Assembly (NCBI GenBank): GCA_001449105.1
Contig: LNIY01000117.1
Coordinates: forward strand, 62,001 to 126,000
Origin: Caulobacter vibrioides
GTDB taxonomy: Bacteria; Pseudomonadota; Alphaproteobacteria; Caulobacterales; Caulobacteraceae
Reading direction: 5' to 3'
Length of the DNA: 64,000 bases
Numbering within the stretch: the first letter of the stretch is position 1; each line of letters starts with the position of its first letter. The notes under the pieces are model-generated. The model was not told where the DNA came from. It worked only from the letters and a program-made list of their open reading frames with translations, and made no database searches. This document shows positions 1 to 13,079 of the stretch, one piece after another. A program made the position numbers and the translations under genes.

Positions 1-714
1 GATCGTGCCGGGATCCGCGCCCAGAACGACGGCGCAGGGCAGCGGCTCCTTCTTGCCGGCTTTCTTGTGGCGGGCGTAGTGCTGGGCGCCGCCGCGGTGG
101 GCCAGCCAGCGCATGATCGCCTTGTCCTTGCCCAGCACCTGCATGCGGTAGATGCCGAGGTTGAAGTCGTCCTCGCGGTCGTCGCTGGGACCCTTGGTGA
201 CCACCAGGCCCCAGGTGATCAGCGGCGCGGGCTCGCCCGGCCAGCAGGTCTGCACCGGCAGCCTGGACAGGTCGATCTGGTCGCCGGTCAGGACGACCTC
301 CTGCACCGGGGCCTTCTTCACCGTGCCGGGTCGCATCGACAGCACCGTCTTGGCCAGCGGCAGCATGTCGATGGCGTCCTTCAGGCCCTTGGGGGGCTGG
401 GGCTGACGCAGGAAGGCCAGCAGTTCGCCCACTTCGCGCAGCTCGCCGGCGGTGGTGCGAGGCTCGCCGCCCAGCGTGACGCCCATGGCCACCCGCTTGA
501 CCGTGCCGAACAGGTTGGCCAGGGCCGGCATGGGCGAGCGCGACCCGTCGGGCAGCAGCACGTGCTCGAACAGCACCGCCGGACCGCCGGCAGCCAGCAG
601 GCGGGTCTGGATCTCGGTCATCTCCAGGACGGACGAGACCGGCTCCTTGACCCGCACCAGCTCGCCCTGGGCCTCCAGCACGTCGATGAATTCGCGAAGC
701 GAACGGTAGGCCAT
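1..714 (-). CDS. ubiD: UbiD family decarboxylase, N-terminal part (runs off the window)
   Basis: UbiD removes the carboxyl group of 3-polyprenyl-4-hydroxybenzoate in ubiquinone synthesis, using prenylated FMN. The leftward frame begins at an ATG at 712-714, preceded by AGGAG, and stays open for 238 codons to base 1. The visible protein starts [19 protein letters not shown], as UbiD proteins do. It contains the conserved stretches [18 protein letters not shown] and NLGIYRMQV and an HRGG motif near residue 207. The C-terminal half lies outside the window, so completeness cannot be judged. It is divergent from the DUF4153 gene to its right. The family call is firm; the ubiquinone role follows from the family and general alphaproteobacterial physiology. 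Confidence 0.92.
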
Positions 715-781
715 GGGCGGGAAACTCCTGGAACGGCGCGGAACCTAGAAGCGGCGGTGCGTCGGGGCAAGGCGTGGAGAG

Positions 782-804
782 GGGCGAAGCGGCAAGCTTC
801 GCCC
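782..804. other. Perfect 9-bp inverted repeat between divergent genes
   Basis: GGGCGAAGC and its exact complement GCTTCGCCC are separated by five bases, in the 153-bp space between the divergent ubiD and DUF4153 genes. No T-run follows on either strand, so it is not an obvious intrinsic terminator. It could be a transcribed hairpin, an operator or a lone REP arm. Confidence 0.4.
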
Positions 805-867
805 TAGTCGCGCCCCGATGGACGTGCTCCCTTGCGCTCGCCTTCAGGAGTTGAGCGGAAAGACGTC

Positions 868-2634
868 ATGACCGATCCCGCGACCGAGACCGCCGATCCC
901 AAGGCCGTGCGCCGCGTCGCGGCCTTGCGCCTGGTCACGGGACTGGCCCAGGGCCTGCTGCTGTTCGGCCTCGACCACGCGCTGAAGACCAAGGCCTGGC
1001 CGGCCACCCAGCCGGCGGTGTTCGCCGCGATCGCCGCGGTGGTGATCTTCGTGCCGTTCGTGGTGCTGGCCGGGCTGTCGGCCATGCGCTGGAGCCGGCT
1101 GGCGGCCTGGAAGCTGGTCGCGGTGCTGGTGGTCGCGGGGCTGGCCGCCTACGCCGTCCACAGCGGTCAGGCCGAGATCCGGCCGCGGTCGGTGATCCCC
1201 GAGGGCGTGGCGATGCTGGCGATCGCCGCCCTGCTGTTCATCGGCCACCACCTGGTGCAGCCGGCCGAGATGGAGCGGCGGCCGATCGCGCGCTTCACCA
1301 CCTATTTCGACGAGACCTGGAAGCACGGGGTGCAGCTGGCGCTGTCGGCCCTGTTCACCGGCGCGTTCTGGCTGCTGCTGCACCTGGCCTCGGCCCTGTT
1401 CTCGATGATCGGCATCGAGGCGATCAACAAGCTGATCGACCAGCCGTGGTTCGCCTGGCCGGCCACGGCGGTGATGTTCGCCGCCGCCGTGCAGCTGACC
1501 GACGTGCGCGCGGGCCTGGTGCGCGGGGTGCGCAGCGTGTCGCTGACCCTGCTGGCCTGGCTGCTGCCGCTGATGGTGCTGATCGCGGCCGGCTTCCTGG
1601 CGACCCTGCCGTTCAAGGGGCTGGACCTGCTGTGGGCCACCAAGAAGGCCGCGGCCCTGCTGCTGACGGCGGCCGCCTTCCTGATCGTGCTGACCAACGC
1701 CGCCTACCAGGACGGAACCGAGCCGCCGCCGAAGGTGCTGGCCTGGGCGGCGCGGATCGCCGGCCTGCTGCTGGCCCCGATCACGGTGCTGGCCGCCTAC
1801 GCCATCTGGCTGCGGGTGAACCAGTACGGCCTGACCCCCGAGCGGGTCTACGGCGCGGCCTGCGTGATCGTCGCGGCCGGCTATGCCCTCGGCTATGCGG
1901 TCGCCGCCCTCAAGCCCGGCGCCTGGATGAAGCCGCTGGAGCCGACCAACATCGCCCTGGCCTTCGTCAGCGTCGCCGTGCTGCTGGGCCTGTTCACCCC
2001 GGTCGCCGACCCGGTGCGACTGTCGGTGAACAGCCAGCTGGCGCGGCTGGAGGCTGGCAAGGTCAAGCCCGAGGCCTTCGACTACGACTTCCTGCGCTTC
2101 GACGCCGGCAAGCGCGGCGAGGCGGCGCTGGCGACGCTGGCCAGGGACGAGAACCCGGTGATCGCCCGTGAAGCCGGCGCGGCCGCCAAGCGCGTCGCGC
2201 GTCGTCCGTTCCAACCCGACAAGGCCGATTTGAAGCGGTTGCCGGTCTATCCGGCGGGCAGGAGCCTGCCGGAAAGCTTCGTCACCGGCGAGCAGGACCC
2301 CTGGCTGTCCTACTGTGGCCGGCGCCCGGAGACGTGTTCCGCCGGTCTGGTCGACATCGACGGCGACGGCGTCGAGGAGGTGCTGGTCAGCACGTCCGCC
2401 ACGATCCTGATCTTCAAGTTCGACAAGGGCTGGAAGCGGTTCGGTCGGGCGGCCCCGGCCTGCGGCGACGCCAAGTTCGACGACCTGATGAAGACGGGGC
2501 GCTTCGGCGTGGCCCCGGCCGCCCCGCGCCAGGATCTGCTGGTTGGGGGGCGGCGCCTGCTGATCGATCCGGAGAACGACGGCTGCCAGGACGTGGCCCA
2601 GGGCGGATCGACCAACCCGGTGGCGGTTCCCTAG
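868..2634 (+). CDS. DUF4153 multi-pass membrane protein
   Basis: This 588-residue protein belongs to the DUF4153 family of inner-membrane proteins of unknown function. Around ten hydrophobic segments occupy residues 20 to 400, with the family-like region ARFTTYFDETWKHGVQLA near residue 145. A soluble C-terminal tail of about 180 residues follows and includes a DIDGDGVEEVLVS segment that resembles a calcium-binding or VCBS-type DxDGDG repeat. I chose the ATG at 868 over an upstream TTG in frame because the extra residues look non-coding and a purine-rich GCGGAAAG precedes the ATG. The stop shares CTAG with the convergent ABC transporter gene. Function is unknown. Confidence 0.85.
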   Translation: MTDPATETADPKAVRRVAALRLVTGLAQGLLLFGLDHALKTKAWPATQPAVFAAIAAVVIFVPFVVLAGLSAMRWSRLAAWKLVAVLVVAGLAAYAVHSGQAEIRPRSVIPEGVAMLAIAALLFIGHHLVQPAEMERRPIARFTTYFDETWKHGVQLALSALFTGAFWLLLHLASALFSMIGIEAINKLIDQPWFAWPATAVMFAAAVQLTDVRAGLVRGVRSVSLTLLAWLLPLMVLIAAGFLATLPFKGLDLLWATKKAAALLLTAAAFLIVLTNAAYQDGTEPPPKVLAWAARIAGLLLAPITVLAAYAIWLRVNQYGLTPERVYGAACVIVAAGYALGYAVAALKPGAWMKPLEPTNIALAFVSVAVLLGLFTPVADPVRLSVNSQLARLEAGKVKPEAFDYDFLRFDAGKRGEAALATLARDENPVIAREAGAAAKRVARRPFQPDKADLKRLPVYPAGRSLPESFVTGEQDPWLSYCGRRPETCSAGLVDIDGDGVEEVLVSTSATILIFKFDKGWKRFGRAAPACGDAKFDDLMKTGRFGVAPAAPRQDLLVGGRRLLIDPENDGCQDVAQGGSTNPVAVP

Positions 2635-4415
2635 GCGGCCCCCTCGCTGACCGCGTTCAGGCGGGCATAGACGCCGCCGGCCGCCTTGAGGTCGGCGTGG
2701 CGGCCTTCCTCGACGACCCGGCCGTTCTGGAACACCAGGATGCGGTCGGCGCCGCGCACGGTCGACAGGCGGTGGGCGATGACGATCGTGGTGCGGCCCT
2801 GCATCAGGGCCTCGGCGGCCTCCTGGACCAGGGCCTCGGTCTCGACGTCGAGCGACGAGGTGGCCTCGTCCAGAACGAGGATCGGGGCGTCGGTCAGGAA
2901 GGCGCGGGCGATGGCCACGCGCTGGCGCTCGCCGCCCGACAGCTTGATGCCGCGTTCGCCCACCAGGGTGTCGTAGCCGTGCGGCAGCTTGAGGATGAAG
3001 TCGTGGGCGCGGGCCTTTTTCGCCGCCTCCACCACCTGCTCGAAGGTGGCGTCTGGGCGGCCGTAGGCGATGTTGTCGAGCAGGCTGCGGTGGAACAGCG
3101 CCGGGTCCTGCGGCACCACGGCGATGGCGCGGCGCAGGGAGCCTTGCGTCACGCGGGCCACGTCCTGGCCGTCGATCAGGATCCGCCCGCCCTGCAGGTC
3201 GTGCAGGCGCTGGATCAGCTTGACGAAGGTCGACTTGCCCGAGCCCGTGGGCCCGACCAGGGCCACCTTCTCGCCCGGCGCGATGTCCAGCGAGAAGCGG
3301 TCGTACAGCGGCGCGCCGGCGTTGCGGTAGGCGAAGGTCACGCCCTGGAAGGCGATATCGCCCGGGCCGGGTAGGAAGTCGGGCGCGCCCGGCCGGTCGG
3401 CGATCTGCGGTGCAAGGGTGGCCCAGGCCGCGGCGTCCTCGCTGTCGTCGAGGCCCTTCTGCAGCATGCGGATGTTCTCGCCCATGTTGCGCAGGTAGCC
3501 GCTCATCAGCAGGAAGGCGGTGATGGCGAAGGCGACGTCGCCGGGGCCGGCCTTGCCTTGCAGCCAGCTCCAGACCATCGCGCCGGACAGCCCCGCCTGC
3601 AGCACCACCAGCAGCAGGTTCTGGCCCAGCCAGACGTCGGTGAAGCGGTTCCAGGTGACCATCACCGCGTCGCGCCAGGCGGCGGTGACCTGGGCCAGGC
3701 GCTCGGTCTCGCGGGCCTCGGCGCCGAACGCCTTGACGGTGGGGTTGGACGTCACCGCGTCGGCCAGGGCCCCGCCGATGGCGGAGTCCAGCGCGTTGGA
3801 CTTCAGGTTCGACGGGCGAACGTAGCGCTCGGTGATCCACAGGTTCACGGCCAGGTACAGCACCACCACGACCAGCGAGATGCCGCCGGCCAGCGGCTGG
3901 CGCAGCAGCATCATCACCGACAGGCCGACCAGCACGATCAGGCTGGGCACGAGCCAGATGGTGAAGGCGTCTGTGACGCTGTCATAGCCCCACATGGCGC
4001 GGGTCAGCTTGCGCACCGTGGCGCCGGCGAAGCTGTCGGCGTGCCAGTCGGACGAGAAGGCCTGGACGCGGGCGAAGCCCTCGTTGGTCATCTCCTCCAT
4101 GTTGCGGGCCGCCAGCGGAATCCAGAAGCGGTGGGCGACGTTGCGGATCAGCGAGAAGGCCAGATAGACGCCGACGAAGGCCGCCCAGGCGCCCCAGGCC
4201 TGGCCCTTCTGGCCGGCGGCGACCACGTCGATCAGCTTGCCCGAGGCCCACGGCAGGGCCAGGTCGAAGGCCACCGCGACCAGGGTCAGGATCACGCCGG
4301 CGGCGAAGATCGCTTTGCGGCGCAGCCAGAACCGCGCCAGGAAGCCCAGCACCTGGCCGTTGGACAACGCCCGGCGCTTGCCGCCGCCCTCGTCTTCGTC
4401 GTCGAAATCGCTCAT
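2631..4415 (-). CDS. ABC transporter, fused permease and ATPase (exporter type)
   Basis: A 594-residue half-transporter of the ABCB/MsbA type, which would work as a homodimer in the inner membrane to export a lipid, drug or peptide. Residues 25 to 310 form the six-helix membrane domain. The nucleotide-binding domain follows with Walker [10 protein letters not shown], signature LSGGERQR, Walker [13 protein letters not shown] and H-loop IAHRLSTV, all intact. The N-terminus is acidic ([12 protein letters not shown]). No periplasmic adaptor or outer-membrane channel gene is adjacent, so the substrate cannot be deduced. The gene ends in the same CTAG as the DUF4153 gene. Confidence 0.9.
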
Positions 4416-4496
4416 GGGCCGCTAGATAGGCCTGTTGCGGTCGATAAGGAACGTCCTGCGGGCGCCCTGCTGCCGGGTTTTGGCTTGGGGGCTTAG

Positions 4497-4668
4497 GCCC
4501 CTCCCCCGTGCAACGGGGGAGGGGGACCGGCGAAGCCGGTGGAGGGGGCGAGACTGGGCGCCGTGCCCGCCGTCGCCCCCTCCGTCACGCTGCGTATCCG
4601 CAGCGCGCCACCTCCCCCGTTTCTCGGGGGAGGAGCAGGGAGCAGTCGGCGAAGCCGACCGAGGGGGT
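4497..4668. repeat. Paired palindromic intergenic element, family A copy 1
   Basis: This space holds several GC-rich hairpins in opposed arms. CCTCCCCCG-tgcaa-CGGGGGAGG sits near 4500-4525, CCGGCGAAGCCGG near 4527-4540, CCTCCCCCG-tttct-CGGGGGAGG near 4611-4633 and CGGCGAAGCCG near 4648-4658. The same arms recur at 20763-20905. The element reaches the stop codon of the VOC gene. Its layout resembles REP/BIME elements. Confidence 0.7.
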
Positions 4669-5021
4669 CACTCGAACCCCGTCGCGCTCCAGACGGCCAG
4701 TTCGTTGCCGGCCGGGTCGATGAAGTGGAAGCGGCGGCCGCCGGGGAATTCGAAGATCGGCTTCACCACCACGCCGCCGGCCGCGACGACCTTGGCTTCC
4801 ATGGCCTCCAGGTCGTGGGCGTAGAGGATGACCAGCGGCTTGGCCGGCTCTTCCGTCACGTCGCCCACGAAGCCGCCGTCGGCGCCCTGGCCCTCGAAGG
4901 CGGCGTAGCCGGGGCCGTAGTCGGTGAAGCTCCAGCCGAAGGCGGCCGCGTAGAAGGCCTTGGTCGCCGGCAGCTCGCCGCCCGCCCATTCGATGTAGTC
5001 GATCTTGCCGTCTTCGCGCAT
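4668..5021 (-). CDS. VOC family (glyoxalase/bleomycin-resistance fold) protein
   Basis: A 117-residue single-domain protein of the vicinal oxygen chelate superfamily. It opens with KIDYIEWAGGELPATKAFY, the typical first beta-alpha unit of this fold. It closes with FHFIDPAGNELAVWS, the conserved final strand with the DPxGN turn and metal-ligand glutamate. Such proteins can be isomerases, dioxygenases or resistance binders, and the substrate cannot be told from the sequence. The ATG at 5019-5021 is preceded by GGGAG. It lies 43 bp downstream of the methyltransferase gene on the same strand and may be cotranscribed. Confidence 0.88.
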   Translation of the reverse strand: MREDGKIDYIEWAGGELPATKAFYAAAFGWSFTDYGPGYAAFEGQGADGGFVGDVTEEPAKPLVILYAHDLEAMEAKVVAAGGVVVKPIFEFPGGRRFHFIDPAGNELAVWSATGFE

Positions 5022-5064
5022 GGGCGTGCTCCCAGAAATGTTCTTATTATGTTCTAATCGGCGC

Positions 5065-5724
5065 TCAAGGCAGTGTCCAGACGCTGGTGCGCTTGATCGC
5101 CAGGTCTTCCAGCTCGCGGGTGGTCGGCACCTGGTATTCGGCCAGTTTCACCAGGCCGTCCTTGGGAAAGTAGGTGCGGCCCGGATCGCCGACCAGCACC
5201 GTGGCGCCCGTCGCGCGGCCTTGCGCCAGCCAGGCCATGACCGCCGTCGCCATCGGGCCTTCGTAGCAGATGTCGCCGGCCAGCAGCACGTCGGCCTGGG
5301 GCGGCGGGGCGTCCAGCAGGTTGCGGTCGGTGAAAGCGATCTCGACGCTGTTGGCCTGTGCGTTCATCGCCACGGCCGCCTCGCAGAAGACGTCGATGTC
5401 GGCCGCCAGCACGCTGGCCGCCCCCGCCTTCATCGCCGCGACGGCGACGATGCCCGAGCCGGTGGCGAAGTCGATCACGTGCTTGCCGCGCACGATCTCC
5501 GGATGGTCGAGCACGTAGCGCGCCAGGGCCTGGCCGCCGGCCCACGCGAAGGCCCAGAACGGCGGCGGCAGGCCGATTTCCTCCAGCGCTTCCTCGGTCA
5601 GCTTCCACAGCGGCGTGATTTCGTCGGCCAGATGCAGCACCAGCTCGGGCGCGTGCGGCGTCGGCAGCAGGCGGGTGTTGTCGGCGATGAAGGCCCGGCG
5701 GCCTTCCAGGGTCTGGACGATCAT
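5065..5724 (-). CDS. Class I SAM-dependent methyltransferase, ETF-beta lysine methyltransferase type
   Basis: A 219-residue methyltransferase with the SAM-binding motif I DFATGSGIVAVAA near residue 85 and an acidic motif II (AADID) about 20 residues later. The N-terminal sequence (FIADNTRLLPTPHAPELVLH) and the PFWAFAWAGGQALARYVLD segment match the family related to human ETFBKMT (METTL20), which methylates lysines of electron-transfer flavoprotein beta. Older annotations call such proteins L11 methyltransferase-like or nicotinamide N-methyltransferase. The SAM fold is certain. The ETF-beta target is inferred from family resemblance. Confidence 0.8.
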   Translation of the reverse strand: MIVQTLEGRRAFIADNTRLLPTPHAPELVLHLADEITPLWKLTEEALEEIGLPPPFWAFAWAGGQALARYVLDHPEIVRGKHVIDFATGSGIVAVAAMKAGAASVLAADIDVFCEAAVAMNAQANSVEIAFTDRNLLDAPPPQADVLLAGDICYEGPMATAVMAWLAQGRATGATVLVGDPGRTYFPKDGLVKLAEYQVPTTRELEDLAIKRTSVWTLP

Positions 5725-5758
5725 GGGCGGGTTATAGGCGTTTCGCGCCAGCGCGAGA

Positions 5759-5858
5759 CCCCCTCAGTCGCTCCGCGACAGCTCCCCCAGAGGGGGAGCA
5801 TCTTCCTGGCGCGGCGCTTCCCTCTGGGGGAGGTGGCCCGGAGGGCCGGAGGGGGTCA
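5759..5858. repeat. Paired palindromic element, family B copy 1
   Basis: About 100 bp made of two arms. The first contains GTCGCTCCGCGAC and CTCCCCCAGAGGGGGAG, and the second contains CCCTCTGGGGGAGG and GGCCCGGAGGGCC. The element is bounded by CCCCCTC and GAGGGGG. The reverse complement of the same sequence, nearly identical in both arms, is at 7234-7345. The stop codon of the desaturase gene (5856-5858) is the last triplet of the element. Confidence 0.8.
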
Positions 5859-6821
5859 GGCGACGACCGCCTTGCCCGAAGCCGCCCGCAGCACCGTCAG
5901 ATAGCCCGGCGCGGTCAGCATGCCCTCGGTCAGTCCCTTCTCCCGCAGCAGCCGGTGCGCCCGGGGCAGGTTCCAGCAGGGCACGTGCATGAACAGGTGG
6001 TGCTCGGCGTGGAAGTTGACGTGATAGGGGGCCACGAGCGCGCGTTCGATCCAGTTGGCGCGGGTGGTGCGGGCGTGGCGGAAGGGGTCGGGCTCGTCCT
6101 TGGCCACCAGGGCGTGCTCGGCGATGTTGCGCAGGCGGGTGACCAGCGGGAACCAGGTGGCCATCGGCACGAGCCACAGGGCGAACCACGCCCACCACAG
6201 GCCGGCGACGCTCAAGGCCGCCAGCATGGCCAGGTTGATCAGCAGGAACCGCTTCTGGCCGGCCGCGGCGCGGGCGAAGATCGCGCCCGGGGCCTGGCCG
6301 TCGCCGCGCTTCTTCAGGCCCGCGATGATCGGCCCGAACCGCTGCTTGAAGAAGGTCTGGCCGGTCAGGTCGCGGATGATCTTGCGGCGCAGCGAGGCCC
6401 GCGTGGTCGGGAACGGGGCTGACAGCACCAGGTCCGGGTCCTCGGCCTGCTGGGCGAACTTGTGGTGGGTCAGGTGATAGGGGCGGTAGCTGTTGAGCGA
6501 GGCGCCCAGCGGCGCTGCGCACAGCCACTCGCCCAGCCAGTCGTTGACCTTCAGGTTGGGGTGCAGGCCGCCGTGCGCGGCCTCGTGCATCAGGATCGCC
6601 AGGCCCAGCTGCCGCGCGCCGATCAGCATGACCGCGACGATGTAGGTCAGCGGATTGGGCCAGATCACGAACAGCGCCCCGGCCAGCAGGATCACGCCCC
6701 AGGCATGGGCGACCATGGCGATCCCCCGCCAGGACGAGCGCGCCGACAGGCGGGCCCATTCCTCGGGCGCGAACAGCTCCTGCGGCTTGATGCGAGCGGC
6801 GACGGCCATGGAACGGATCAT
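5856..6821 (-). CDS. Membrane fatty acid desaturase
   Basis: A 321-residue di-iron membrane desaturase or hydroxylase. The three histidine boxes are all present: HEAAHGG near residue 92, HLTHHKF near residue 128 and HAEHHLF near residue 275. Hydrophobic helix pairs precede the first box and lie between the second and third. The enzyme would introduce a double bond or hydroxyl group into a fatty acyl or related lipid chain in the inner membrane. The start could be 6821 or a second ATG at 6809; neither has a clear ribosome binding site. It is flanked by two inverted copies of family B repeats and is divergent from the LprI-like gene. Confidence 0.9.
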   Translation of the reverse strand: MIRSMAVAARIKPQELFAPEEWARLSARSSWRGIAMVAHAWGVILLAGALFVIWPNPLTYIVAVMLIGARQLGLAILMHEAAHGGLHPNLKVNDWLGEWLCAAPLGASLNSYRPYHLTHHKFAQQAEDPDLVLSAPFPTTRASLRRKIIRDLTGQTFFKQRFGPIIAGLKKRGDGQAPGAIFARAAAGQKRFLLINLAMLAALSVAGLWWAWFALWLVPMATWFPLVTRLRNIAEHALVAKDEPDPFRHARTTRANWIERALVAPYHVNFHAEHHLFMHVPCWNLPRAHRLLREKGLTEGMLTAPGYLTVLRAASGKAVVA

Positions 6822-6883
6822 CGCACATTCAGCTTTCAGCCGACAGAATGCCGTTAGGTCACGTCCGTTTCCGGAGAGTTTTC

Positions 6884-7225
6884 ATGCGTTTGCCGATCGC
6901 CGCCGCCCTCGTCTTCCTCGGCCTCGCCGGAACCGCGCAGGCGGCCAGCTTCGACTGCGCCAAGGCCAGGCGGGCCGACGAGCGAGCGATCTGCGCGGAC
7001 CGCGGCCTCGACAACAAGGATGTGCGGATGAGCGTGCTCTACGACATCAACAAGCGCACCATGGGCATGGGCGCGCGCGGGGCGCTGATGGACAGCCAGC
7101 AGGCCTGGCTGAACGATCGCGCCAATTGCAAGGCCAACCGCGCCTGCCTGGCGCGCGCCTACGACCGGCGGCTGGGCGAGCTGGAACGGTCGATGGAGCG
7201 GATCTACCGCGCGGGGCCGTTTTGA
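6884..7225 (+). CDS. Secreted LprI-like (DUF1311) protein
   Basis: A 113-residue exported protein. Residues 1 to 20 form a signal peptide (MRLPIAAALVFLGLAGTAQA, cleavage before A). The mature part has the cysteine pattern of the LprI N-terminal family (FDCAKAR, ERAICAD, NCKANRACL) followed by AYDRRLGELE. Family members include Mycobacterium LprI, a lysozyme inhibitor, so a periplasmic envelope-protection role is possible but unproven. The ATG at 6884 is preceded by GGAGAG, and a signal peptide begins exactly there, which argues against the upstream in-frame start. Confidence 0.85.
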   Translation: MRLPIAAALVFLGLAGTAQAASFDCAKARRADERAICADRGLDNKDVRMSVLYDINKRTMGMGARGALMDSQQAWLNDRANCKANRACLARAYDRRLGELERSMERIYRAGPF

Positions 7226-7233
7226 CGGGAAAG

Positions 7234-7345
7234 GCCCCCTCCGGCCCTCCGGGCCACCTCCCCCAGAGGGGGAGGATCTATGAACGCCGACGCCAAGAAG
7301 ATGCTCCCCCTCTGGGGGAGCTGTCGCGGAGCGACTGAGGGGGTT
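7234..7345. repeat. Paired palindromic element, family B copy 2 (inverted)
   Basis: This is the reverse complement of the element at 5759-5858. The outer arms (CCCCCTCCGGCCCTCCGGGC and the GTCGCGGAGCGAC hairpin) are essentially identical, while the spacer between arms differs. It sits between the 3' ends of the LprI-like gene and rho. With copy 1 it makes an inverted repeat flanking about 1.4 kb that contains the desaturase and LprI-like genes. Confidence 0.8.
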
Positions 7346-7400: not shown

Positions 7401-7416
7401 TGTTTCACGTGAAACA
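7401..7416. other. parS: parS centromere site (ParB binding)
   Basis: TGTTTCACGTGAAACA is a perfect 16-bp palindrome identical to the chromosomal parS consensus bound by ParB in Caulobacter and most bacteria. It lies between the rho terminator and the rho stop codon, about 4.3 kb from the origin region. Other CACGTG hexamers in the window lack the flanking TGTTT/AAACA and were not counted. Confidence 0.95.
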
Positions 7417-9631: not shown

Positions 9632-10692
9632 GCGCGGGCTCCAGAGGCGGTTTTGGGGCAGGATCGGTCGCTACCGCAGACCTGCGGCGCCTCCGAAGAA
9701 AGGGCCTCAGTCACGAGAGTCCCCAAACAATCGATGAACGCGGGCGCCACGCCAAGGGCCGGCACGCGGGCGTAGATCGACCCGCCATGCTCATAGGCCA
9801 GCTCGCGATACTCGACGTCCAGCTCGACCAGCGTCTCGATGTGCTCGGAGACGAAGGCGATCGGCGTGACGATCAGCGCCAGACCCTCCTGCGCCGCGGC
9901 CTTGACCTCGTCGTCGGTCGACGGGCCGATCCATTTCAGCGGGCCGACCCGGCTCTGATAGCTGATCTTCCAGTCGACCCCTTCGCCCAGGATGTCGCCG
10001 AGCTTGGCCACGACCGCGGCCGCGGTGGCCTCGACCTGGCGCTGGTAGGGATCGCCGGCGATGATCACCTTCTCCGGCAGGCCATGGGCCGAGAACAGGA
10101 TCCGCGCGGACCTGGGCGAGCCGGCCTTGGCGTACTCGGCGCGGATCAGGTCCGCGTGCGCCTGCACGAAGCCCTCGGCGGTCGGATAGCAGCAGATCGT
10201 CGTCGTGCGGCCCGGACCCTTGCGATAGGCGCGCTTCCACGCTTTCAGCGACGAGGCCGTCGTGGTGGTCGAATACTGCGGATAGAGCGGCAGCAGCACC
10301 ACCTCGTCGGGCTTCCAGGCCTTGACCGCCCTCGCCGTCTCGCCGGTCAACGGATCCCAGTAGCGCATGGCCACGAAGGCCTTGACCTCATCGCCCGGCA
10401 GACGCTCGGCCAGCACCGCCTCCAGCGCCCGCGCCTGCTTGTCCGTTTCCGGCAGCAGGGGCGAGCCGCCGCCCATCAGCGCGTAGTTGGCGCGCGCCAA
10501 CTTGGCCCGGGTGGTCGAGATCAGCGCCGCCACCGGATAGCGGATGAAGAACGGCGCCTGGATGATCGCCGGATCGCGGAACAGGTTGAACAGGAACGGC
10601 CGCACGGCCGCCTGGCCGTCGGGTCCGCCCAGGTTGAACAGGACGACGGCGATCCTGCGCCCGGTCTTCTGGCCGCTGTTCAGATCGCTCAA
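9628..10692 (-). CDS. hemH: Ferrochelatase
   Basis: Ferrochelatase inserts ferrous iron into protoporphyrin IX, the last step of protoheme synthesis. From a TTG start at 10690-10692 the protein is 354 residues, beginning LSDLNSGQKTGRRIAVV ahead of the canonical NLGGPD. This TTG overlaps the hemE stop (TTGA). An upstream in-frame ATG inside hemE would add an implausible tail. The active-site histidine is in ILFSAHGLPEKV. One internal CC pair and three cysteines in the last 40 residues (DCLG, VCGSDRSC) suit the [2Fe-2S] cluster reported for Caulobacter ferrochelatase. Cluster binding is inferred. Confidence 0.95.
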   Translation of the reverse strand: MSDLNSGQKTGRRIAVVLFNLGGPDGQAAVRPFLFNLFRDPAIIQAPFFIRYPVAALISTTRAKLARANYALMGGGSPLLPETDKQARALEAVLAERLPGDEVKAFVAMRYWDPLTGETARAVKAWKPDEVVLLPLYPQYSTTTTASSLKAWKRAYRKGPGRTTTICCYPTAEGFVQAHADLIRAEYAKAGSPRSARILFSAHGLPEKVIIAGDPYQRQVEATAAAVVAKLGDILGEGVDWKISYQSRVGPLKWIGPSTDDEVKAAAQEGLALIVTPIAFVSEHIETLVELDVEYRELAYEHGGSIYARVPALGVAPAFIDCLGTLVTEALSSEAPQVCGSDRSCPKTASGARA

Positions 10693-11729
10693 GCGACGCT
10701 TCCTTGGCCGGTCACCCGCTTCAGCACCTGCTCGACATGGGGGATGGGCGTATCGGGCAGGATGCCGTGGCCCAAGTTGAAGATATAGGGGCCCTGTCCC
10801 CACTGCTCCAGCATCTGATCCACCCGTTCATCCAGCGCCGCGCCCCCGGCCCGCAACAGCAGCGGATCGAGCGCGCCCTGGATGGTCTTGGTCTTCTGGA
10901 TCGTCTGGCCCAGCTTCGCCGAGGCCGAGGTGTCGAGCGCCACGCCGTCCACAGGCACGGCCTGCGCGTAGGCCTCGACGAGCGTTCCGGCCCCGCGGGG
11001 GAAGCCGATAAGGGGCACGGTCACGCCGCGCGCGCGCAGGCCCTCGACGATGGCGATATGGGGCTTGGTCACCAGACGCTCGAAAAGCGGCTCTGAGAGG
11101 CCCTCTGCCCAGCTCTCGAACAGCTTCAGCGCCTGGGCGCCGGAAGCGGCCTGCATGGCCAGATAATCCACCGTGGCGTCGACGAGGATCTGGATCAGTC
11201 GGTCCAGCTTGTCGGCGTGCTGGTAGGCGAAGGTGCGCGCGCCCGAGCGATCGCTGGAGCCGCCCTCGATCATGTAGGTCGCCACCGTCCACGGCGCACC
11301 GGCGAAGCCGATCAGGGCCTTGGACGGATCGATGTCGGCCCGAACCCGCGAAAGGGTCTCGCCGACCGCCTTCAGGGCCTCGCCGGCCTGCTGGGTCTTG
11401 TCGGCCATGGCGTCGAGATCTGGCAGCTCGCCCAGCTTGGGACCTTCGCCGGCCTCGAACCACACCTTCTGGCCCAGCGCGCCTGGGATCAGCAGGATGT
11501 CGGCGAAGACGATGGCCGCGTCATACGGAAAGCGGCGCAGCGGTTGCAGCGTGACCTCCGCGGCCTTTTCGGGGTTCAGGCAGAAGCTGATGAAGTCCGG
11601 CGTCGTCGCGCGCACGGCGCGGTATTCGGGAAGATACCGGCCCGCCTGTCGCATGAACCAGACCGGGGGCCTCTGGGCGGTCTCGCCGGCCAGCACGGAG
11701 AGAAACTTCGGGATCGGTGCGCTCGTCAT
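10689..11729 (-). CDS. hemE: Uroporphyrinogen decarboxylase
   Basis: HemE converts uroporphyrinogen III to coproporphyrinogen III. The 346-residue protein begins MTSAPIPKFLSVLAGE and has the signatures RPPVWFMRQAGRYLPEYR and GFAGAPWTVATYMIEGG. The reading frame is open upstream to 11882, but homology starts at the ATG at 11727-11729, and the upstream part is origin DNA. In Caulobacter, hemE borders Cori and promoters inside the origin read into it, which fits the position here. Downstream hemH and hemJ overlap by four bases each. Confidence 0.97.
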   Translation of the reverse strand: MTSAPIPKFLSVLAGETAQRPPVWFMRQAGRYLPEYRAVRATTPDFISFCLNPEKAAEVTLQPLRRFPYDAAIVFADILLIPGALGQKVWFEAGEGPKLGELPDLDAMADKTQQAGEALKAVGETLSRVRADIDPSKALIGFAGAPWTVATYMIEGGSSDRSGARTFAYQHADKLDRLIQILVDATVDYLAMQAASGAQALKLFESWAEGLSEPLFERLVTKPHIAIVEGLRARGVTVPLIGFPRGAGTLVEAYAQAVPVDGVALDTSASAKLGQTIQKTKTIQGALDPLLLRAGGAALDERVDQMLEQWGQGPYIFNLGHGILPDTPIPHVEQVLKRVTGQGSVA

Positions 11730-11786
11730 ACTAGGCGTTAAATCCCGGCGAGCCGTCCCACTCAAGTCCGTGAGACCCCGTACACC

Positions 11787-11825
11787 CTTATTCTTCTTAA
11801 AAATAAGAATCTTAGAAAGATAGGA
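11787..11825. other. AT-rich tract in the origin (candidate unwinding element)
   Basis: A tract of about 39 bp, mostly A and T, in otherwise GC-rich DNA. It contains overlapping inverted repeats CTTATT/AATAAG (11787-11792, 11802-11807) and ATTCTT/AAGAAT (11790-11795, 11805-11810), plus a GAATC site. Its low melting stability makes it the best candidate for initial duplex opening. An alternative is promoter DNA for hemE. Confidence 0.55.
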
Positions 11826-12001
11826 AGAAGGGGGTGGGCAAGTGCAACACGGGGATAAGTCCGCCCATGTGGAGGACTCCAACAGGCCCTACTCGGTATG
11901 CCCCAGCTTGGTACACATGGGAGTCATACCTTGTGAACTTCGTGGACAAGCTTCCAACCCGCCGGAATCCCTAAGGAACCCAGACGATGGTGAAGAGGAA
12001 A

Positions 12002-12016
12002 TTAACCATCCGTTAG
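12002..12016. promoter_or_regulatory. CtrA binding site in the origin
   Basis: TTAA-CCATCCG-TTAG matches the CtrA consensus TTAA-N7-TTAA at seven of eight half-site positions. Phosphorylated CtrA represses initiation by binding Cori sites in C. crescentus. A second, weaker candidate is TAAA-N7-TTAAC at 12181-12196. Confidence 0.75.
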
Positions 12017-12176
12017 GACTTTCCACAGGCGCGGGAGAACGCTCTGGCACAAGTCCGGGAGGGCAGGTTCAAGCTGGGGATTGTCCGGCGTCAACGAGGC
12101 CGTTTATCACAGGGGCGCGGCGTGACGTCGCGCCAGGGCGTATTTGGCGCCCGCTTGTCCCCAGAAGGCGCCCAGA

Positions 12177-13079
12177 GTGGTAAAGCAACCTTTAACGGAT
12201 GATCCACAGGATGGGGCCTCGGCTGAGACCGATCGCCACACCGCGCGGTTCGCCACCTACTTCCATATTCACCTGGTGTCGGACTCCACGGGCGAGACGC
12301 TGAACGCCATGGCGCGGGCGGTCTGTGCACGGTTCACCGACATCCTGCCTATCGAACACATCTACGCGCTGGTCCGTTCCATCCGCCAGTTGGACCGGGC
12401 GCTCGAGGAGATCGCCGGGGCGCCGGGGGTGGTTATGCACACCATCATCGACCCGAACCTGCGCTCGGCGCTGGAAGAGGGCTGCCGTAAGCTCGACATG
12501 CCGTGCATCGCGGCTCTCGACCCGGTGGTCAGCGCCATGTCGCGCTATCTGGGGGCCAAGATTTCCACGCGCGTGGGCGCGCAGCACGCGCTGAACAACG
12601 ACTATTTCGACCGCATCGAGGCCCTGGACTACGCCATCGCCCACGACGACGGCCAGGGCGGCCAGGATCTGACCCAGGCTGACGTCATCCTGGTGGGCGT
12701 GTCGCGTACGTCGAAGACCCCGACCTGCATCTATCTGGCCCACCGCGGCGTGCGCGCCGCCAACGTGCCGCTGGTGCCTGGCCGTCCGCCGCCCGAGCAG
12801 CTGTTCGAGCTGAAGAACACCCTGATCGTGGGTTTGATGACCACGCCCGAGCGGCTGATCCAGATCCGCCGCAACCGTCTTTTGTCGCTCAAGGAGAATA
12901 GAGAGAGCGACTATATCGACACCGACAGCGTGCGGGCCGAGATCATCGCCGCCCGCCGCCTGTTCGAGAAGAACGGCTGGCCGATCATCGACGTCCCCCG
13001 CCGCTCCGTCGAGGAAACCGCCGCGGCGATCATCAACCTGCTGTCGGGCGGCCGCGGCCAGGTCGAGGTGCTGGGATGA
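12177..13079 (+). CDS. PPSR-family regulatory kinase/phosphorylase (DUF299) of PEP synthase or PPDK
   Basis: Proteins of this family add and remove phosphate on a threonine of phosphoenolpyruvate synthase or pyruvate phosphate dikinase, switching gluconeogenic PEP formation. The conserved N-terminal block FHIHLVSDSTGETLNAMARA, the P-loop GVSRTSKTPTCIYLA and the C-terminal NGWPIIDVPRRSVEETAA block are all visible. The start is uncertain: GTG at 12177 (300 residues, GAAGG upstream) is preferred, with a TTG at 12144 in frame. The N-terminal 20 residues before FATYFHIH are variable in the family. It is the first gene right of Cori and heads a four-gene run of 4-bp overlaps. Confidence 0.93.
   Translation: MVKQPLTDDPQDGASAETDRHTARFATYFHIHLVSDSTGETLNAMARAVCARFTDILPIEHIYALVRSIRQLDRALEEIAGAPGVVMHTIIDPNLRSALEEGCRKLDMPCIAALDPVVSAMSRYLGAKISTRVGAQHALNNDYFDRIEALDYAIAHDDGQGGQDLTQADVILVGVSRTSKTPTCIYLAHRGVRAANVPLVPGRPPPEQLFELKNTLIVGLMTTPERLIQIRRNRLLSLKENRESDYIDTDSVRAEIIAARRLFEKNGWPIIDVPRRSVEETAAAIINLLSGGRGQVEVLG
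12200..12208 (+). promoter_or_regulatory. DnaA G-box type site
   Basis: TGATCCACA, the moderate-affinity DnaA G-box sequence described for Cori, differs from the E. coli R1 box by two bases. Related sequences nearby are CTTTCCACA at 12018-12026, TCCTCCACA on the minus strand at 11868-11876, TTATCACAG at 12104-12112 and CTTATCCCC on the minus strand at 11851-11859. W-box type TCCCCA occurs at 12158-12163 (plus) and 12075-12080 (minus). Confidence 0.65.

Follow-up and report, generated by a model that had tools for sequence, protein, structure and literature searches.

Reduced CtrA input predicted at the probable chromosomal origin of a Caulobacter clade

Introduction

In the model species, CtrA holds back chromosome copying in swimming cells. 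How, then, would replication be controlled in a Caulobacter whose origin carries few and imperfect CtrA boxes? The question is raised by the gap between hemE and a PPSR-type gene in a stretch of 64,000 nucleotides (hereafter the window; positions 62001-126000 of contig C117, LNIY01000117.1) from a genome assembled in 160 contigs. An initial annotation of this DNA had proposed a Caulobacter-type origin (Cori), which in C. crescentus is governed by DnaA, CtrA and CcrM methylation, had noticed a single strong CtrA site besides a weak one, and had suggested that control of initiation may differ here. We have compared the gap with shuffled sequence and with the homologous gaps of relatives, and have surveyed the CtrA circuit outside the origin.

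Results

Anatomy of the hemE/PPSR gap

The start codon of hemE occupies positions 11727-11729 on the minus strand and the gap therefore begins at 11730, whereas on the other side the PPSR frame probably starts at the GTG at 12177, as judged from the conserved frame (Table 1). With this start, the G-box and the weaker CtrA-like box would fall within the first codons of PPSR; thus, the annotation of the region as non-coding is accurate for 11730-12176 but not for its right edge, where these two elements lie inside the probable frame. The AT-rich tract, the TTAA-N7-TTAG motif, the G-box, the DnaA-like and W-boxes and four GANTC sites were all located where they had been reported. The two CtrA boxes, both imperfect, form pairs with DnaA elements, 12002-12016 with the box at 12019-12027 and 12181-12195 with the G-box.

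Table 1. Elements of the origin region and its borders (window coordinates; "clade" refers to nine genomes and "others" to 36 further members of the Caulobacter group).
Feature	Position	Strand	Basis or conservation
parS site TGTTTCACGTGAAACA	7401..7416		exact match
hemE, uroporphyrinogen decarboxylase, left border	10689..11729	-	Pfam URO-D, 337 bits; adjoins gap in 79/80 relatives
Origin region, Cori homologue (bounds of the initial annotation)	11730..12208		strictly non-coding part 11730-12176
AT-rich tract, candidate unwinding element	11788..11822		sequence; function presumed
Site homologous to CtrA box -446 of other Caulobacter, degraded in the window	11800..11814		fewer than 3 mismatches in 0/9 clade; perfect in 32/36 others
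GANTC sites	11807, 11875, 11921, 11965		sequence
DnaA-like box TTATCCCCG	11850..11858	-	9/9 clade members
DnaA-like box TCCTCCACA	11868..11876	-	variant TTGTCCACC in several clade members
Site homologous to CtrA box -324 (C. crescentus group), not a box in the window	11923..11937		perfect in 19/36 others; 3 mismatches in 9/9 clade
DnaA-like box TTGTCCACG	11941..11949	-	9/9 clade members
Site homologous to CtrA box -276 of other Caulobacter, degraded in the window	11971..11985		4 to 6 mismatches in 9/9 clade
Near-consensus CtrA box TTAACCATCCGTTAG, TTAA-N7-TTAG	12002..12016	+	half-sites invariant 9/9; 6/7 spacer columns variable
DnaA-like box CTTTCCACA, 2 bp past CtrA box 12002-12016	12019..12027	+	at most 2 mismatches in 8/9 clade; not in L030
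W-box (TGGGGA on + strand)	12075..12080	-	9/9 clade members
DnaA-like box TTGTCCCCA with W-box TCCCCA	12155..12163	+	9/9 clade members
PPSR-type gene, right border	12177..13079	+	Pfam Kinase-PPPase, 307 bits; GTG start probable
CtrA box remnant beside G-box, TAAAGCAACCTTTAA	12181..12195	+	TAAA-N7-TTAA in 9/9 clade; perfect in 36/36 others
G-box TGATCCACA	12200..12208	+	exact in 7/9 clade; CGATCCACA in L010 and L011

To obtain expected motif counts, the segment 11727-12246 (520 bases) was dinucleotide-shuffled 2,000 times. It contains three CtrA-like sites with one mismatch or none versus 0.09 expected, a count reached in none of the shuffles; two of them overlap, one TTAA being common to both, and the frame 11991-12005 was left out as an independent CtrA box. 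DnaA-like 9-mers with at most two mismatches were six versus 0.96 in the shuffles, again with none of the 2,000 attaining that number. The corresponding figures were one versus 0.08 for the G-box with at most one mismatch (P = 0.077), two versus 0.48 for the W-box TCCCCA (P = 0.08) and four versus 1.87 for GANTC (P = 0.11). Therefore, the CtrA-like and DnaA-like parts stand above chance, whereas the GANTC sites, the W-boxes and the single G-box do not on their own, and the weight formerly given to the CcrM sites finds no support in their count. The gap of G072, a genome grouping with C. vibrioides DSM 9893 in our tree, likewise contains four GANTC sites (P = 0.15).

Evidence for the locus as the probable origin

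The gap is a homologue of Cori and very probably the place where chromosome copying starts. Of 152 relatives found, the best 80 were retained, and 79 of these have the order hemE-gap-PPSR, the exception being cut by a contig end; DnaA-like boxes are conserved, and the sequence TGTTTCACGTGAAACA, which we take to be the parS motif, occurs 4.3 kb from the gap. Along with the coarse skew fit obtained in a relative, these features agree with the proposal of a Caulobacter-type origin. The skew was studied in G003, a clade member closed in one contig of 5,659,202 bases with its PPSR match at 1,207,965-1,208,834. A two-switch GC-skew fit to 80 stretches of 20 kb placed the best origin at 1.22 Mb, with Cori at 1.209 Mb; this fit is shallow, leaving 63% of the variance, and positions from 1.18 to 1.32 Mb are nearly as good, with 0.90 Mb close behind (0.658 versus 0.630 at the best). 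Within 1.10-1.28 Mb the cumulative skew has a local minimum at 1,214,636, within 6 kb of Cori. Interpolation of the cumulative skew over the sparse stretches put the minimum elsewhere, at 5.51 Mb for the raw curve and at 1.87 Mb after subtraction of the mean, and the two-switch fit was preferred over it. In a control genome, G012, with Cori at the start of the record and 20 stretches, Cori was among the equal best fits and others were up to ~270 kb away. GC skew, which the initial annotation had named as a check, points beside this locus in the best fit for the closed relative, but shallowly and with other minima by interpolated skew. The parS sites of G003, at 1,213,613 and 1,217,199, are 4.8 and 8.4 kb from Cori. 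Synteny, skew and parS together support the locus as the origin, short of proof.

The polarity of GGGNAGGG, presumably an FtsK-type motif, was rejected as an origin marker. In G003, where it was read on stretches L160, L108, L161 and L129 across 1.12-1.21 Mb, it switches at ~1.14 Mb, on the PPSR side of Cori and ~70 kb away from it, at a place where GC skew does not flip; for the control G012 the best of the fits listed fell 200-300 kb from Cori. Being off in both genomes, it was used neither for nor against the origin. A plasmid similarity search gave no match.

Loss of perfect CtrA boxes in one clade

In a tree of five concatenated proteins (94 tips), the window, L006-L011, L030 and G003 (there as L192) form a clade (support 1.0) with a long stem branch and a sister group of 11 genomes (support 0.83); the best reading is that the window belongs to a Caulobacter of the radicis/zeae/endophyticus/hibisci clade. 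For the scoring of CtrA boxes at homologous places, these nine were put in one alignment with 36 further genomes of the Caulobacter group (the 36 others). Gaps were taken from 40 of the 72 genus genomes with a PPSR match, besides our own genome and G072; 28 of 121 gap sequences duplicated others, leaving 93 distinct ones, among which L037-L043 and L066 are counted although they are outside the 36. L044, with no hemE, was skipped, and G012, read in part, was excluded from the counts.

Three conserved CtrA boxes, -446, -276 and -66, are perfect in 32, 24 and 36 of the 36 others, respectively, and in none of the nine clade members. At -446 the remaining four others have a single mismatch (a TTAG variant) versus three or four mismatches throughout the clade, and at -276 eleven others have one mismatch and one has two. 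The clade sequence at -66, by the G-box, results from a synonymous change, GTT to GTA, which keeps a valine in the PPSR frame, and box -324 is missing from the clade as well. Since boxes -446 and -66, and in most cases -276, are present across the other Caulobacter groups, the loss is assigned to the clade stem. What is found in all nine is TTAA-N7-TTAG at -245, that is, at window position 12002. Both window boxes, 12002 and 12181, are one mismatch from consensus, which leaves no perfect box; the previously described pair of a strong and a weak site stands as a reduced array, but its stronger member is not perfect. An array of several perfect TTAA-N7-TTAA boxes of the C. crescentus type is absent, all nine clade gaps being devoid of any perfect box versus 2 of the 84 other distinct gaps (93 gaps in the wider family). 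TTAA tetramers follow the same trend, with 4 per gap in every clade member versus 7-10 in the 36 others, at a similar GC content (0.57-0.59 versus 0.56-0.62). The suggestion that CtrA control may differ thus gains from a comparison that was beyond the view of the initial annotation. A CtrA position matrix trained on the relatives' G-box-side box scored the 12181 remnant at 16.2 bits and the 12002 box at 9.7 bits; because such training favours the former, the matrix was left out of the ranking.

The two gaps outside the clade with no perfect box, L051 and L053, come from Phenylobacterium assemblies and are a possible second independent case.

The box at 12002 and the DnaA-like boxes

Across the aligned clade gaps, none of the eight half-site bases of the 12002 box changes, whereas variation is seen in six of its seven spacer columns. 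Invariant half-sites alone would arise with a chance of 0.12 at the conservation level of the clade; invariant half-sites with at least three variable spacer columns occur in 17 of 436 frames, and the spacer of the 12002 box is the most variable of these 17. This pattern points to a site that is read, and the succession of the box and, after 2 bp, CTTTCCACA echoes in sequence the CtrA box and G-box pair of the right end. The idea that the 12002 box is wholly new was rejected, as a box with at most one mismatch is found at that place in L198, L206, L020 and L027 (4 of the 36 others); the box is therefore shared or recurrent.

The hexamer TTGTCC, noted in the window at the boxes 11850, 11941 and 12155, has 3-5 copies in each clade gap versus 0-2 in 35 of the 36 others, L036 having four. 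DnaA-like boxes may thus have been retuned towards the TTGTCC type together with CtrA loss. Repeated words were also considered as sites of a new regulator, a candidate that was discarded since the longest clade-specific word, GCTTGTCC, falls in the DnaA-like boxes.

The CtrA circuit outside the origin

CtrA itself is nearly unchanged: in the clade it is 97-98% identical to the C. crescentus query and it is nearly identical across 18 genomes. Within its second half, N229S or V228I, near the C-terminus, are the sole differences by which the nine clade genomes depart from all tested non-clade ones. The CtrA-like box of the ctrA promoter, one mismatch from consensus, is kept in 18 of 18 genomes. 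In each of 17 genomes we counted 2-4 copies of the motif TTAAC-N6-TTAAC (0-3 for a reversed control pattern); at Cori at least one copy is present in 8 of 8 non-clade genomes and in none of the nine clade members, all of which share two copies elsewhere in the genome. The families DUF1465, GcrA and DUF1153, the first and last of which we take to be RcdA and SciP, were detected in 13 of 13 genomes. Finally, relative to G072 the DNA-binding core of DnaA carries a single difference, V46I (tail numbering), a change common to three non-clade genomes of the 14 compared.

Position of dnaA and continuity of the assembly

In G003 dnaA (1236297-1237694) lies to the hemE side of Cori at a distance of 27 kb, in G072 it lies to the PPSR side at 5.7 kb, and in our own assembly it is on another contig (C56:22805-24202). 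The window contig changes neighbourhood at 7225-7345, inside a dispersed repeat of ~110 bp, which reflects either an assembly misjoin or a strain rearrangement. Window positions 1-7225 match 867-875 kb of G003, and the sequence adjoining Cori in G003 is continued by C56:1-54.

Discussion

The locus would be a functional clade origin whose CtrA input has been cut to one or two imperfect boxes, a reading that we consider probable, if not firm. DnaA would assemble on the right-edge G-box and several weak DnaA-like boxes and open the AT tract. In other Caulobacter, phosphorylated CtrA at the three conserved box places would exclude DnaA in swarmer cells; on the stem lineage of the clade these boxes were lost or damaged, leaving a near-consensus mid-gap box beside a DnaA-like box and a box with a damaged half-site beside the G-box. 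With only those two imperfect boxes left, CtrA repression would be weaker or exerted through fewer contacts, and the timing of initiation would rest more on DnaA; weaker CtrA binding and its effect on timing are the parts of this explanation that we infer. It is tempting to go further and propose, tentatively, that the clade origin might have escaped silencing by CtrA or retain just a single composite CtrA/DnaA module, CtrA and its circuit being kept and the DnaA boxes retuned to take over timing.

Other explanations have to be weighed against reduced CtrA input. Control by CtrA could be essentially unchanged if the imperfect boxes at 12002 and 12181 bound the protein cooperatively and sufficed; both are a single mismatch from consensus with half-sites kept in 9/9, and imperfect boxes can still bind CtrA, as suggested by the TTAG half-site at -446 in 4/36 others and by the ctrA promoter box, itself one mismatch off in 18/18 genomes. 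We regard this as unlikely, as two of the three conserved boxes have decayed to 3-6 mismatches and TTAA tetramers are down to four from 7-10 at like GC content. That CtrA no longer acts at the origin, the 12181 remnant being kept by the protein code and the 12002 box being a chance or promoter box, would fit the lack of any perfect box and the position of the remnant inside the PPSR frame; the invariance of the 12002 half-sites amid variation in six of seven spacer columns and the DnaA-like box only 2 bp away make it quite doubtful. Very improbable is a third possibility, namely an origin that has moved and left this locus as a relic: the loss of CtrA boxes, the switch of GGGNAGGG polarity ~70 kb away in G003 and the shallow skew fit would be in line with it, but the best skew fit of G003 at 1.22 Mb, its local cumulative minimum within 6 kb of Cori, its parS sites 4.8 and 8.4 kb away and the retention of the DnaA-like boxes speak for an origin still in place.

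The origin with reduced CtrA input that we favour has in common with the C. crescentus Cori the hemE/PPSR locus, the right-edge G-box, the weak DnaA-like boxes, the AT tract and a nearby parS. It differs in that C. crescentus has five high-affinity CtrA sites, four of them conserved in freshwater Caulobacter, and none in the window is perfect; Cori is moreover described as the highest-affinity CtrA target in C. crescentus (PMC4468827). G-boxes near or overlapping CtrA sites are described in the same paper, and the simplest mechanism put forward there is that CtrA excludes DnaA (PMC4468827). In G072 we found four perfect CtrA boxes and one of one mismatch. An engineered C. crescentus Cori, each of whose five sites had been given a lower CtrA affinity (Bastedo and Marczynski 2009, as presented in PMC4468827), had a mild cell-cycle effect and mattered under nutrient and antibiotic pulses. 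It resembles the clade origin in having weakened Cori CtrA boxes with CtrA kept, whereas it was made in the laboratory and the clade represents a natural state, in which a different box was retained or acquired at 12002. If our reading is true, the clade origin would be a natural counterpart of such laboratory mutants.

The marine Caulobacter MCS10, in work by Shaheen in 2009, is said to have an origin with one CtrA site overlapping a DnaA box. In this marine lineage the use of CtrA at the origin probably evolved independently, according to PMC4468827, whereas the reduction in our clade lies inside the Caulobacter group, whose other members have several boxes. CtrA box loss in the clade is not treated in the accessible parts of PMC2877005 and PMC4221894. 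A literature search by title and start of the abstract, covering mostly papers outside subscription, returned none on the origin of C. radicis, C. zeae, C. endophyticus or C. hibisci. The natural loss of perfect boxes would make it testable whether CtrA at the origin serves dimorphic replication or mainly stress. Several named members of the clade are plant-associated.
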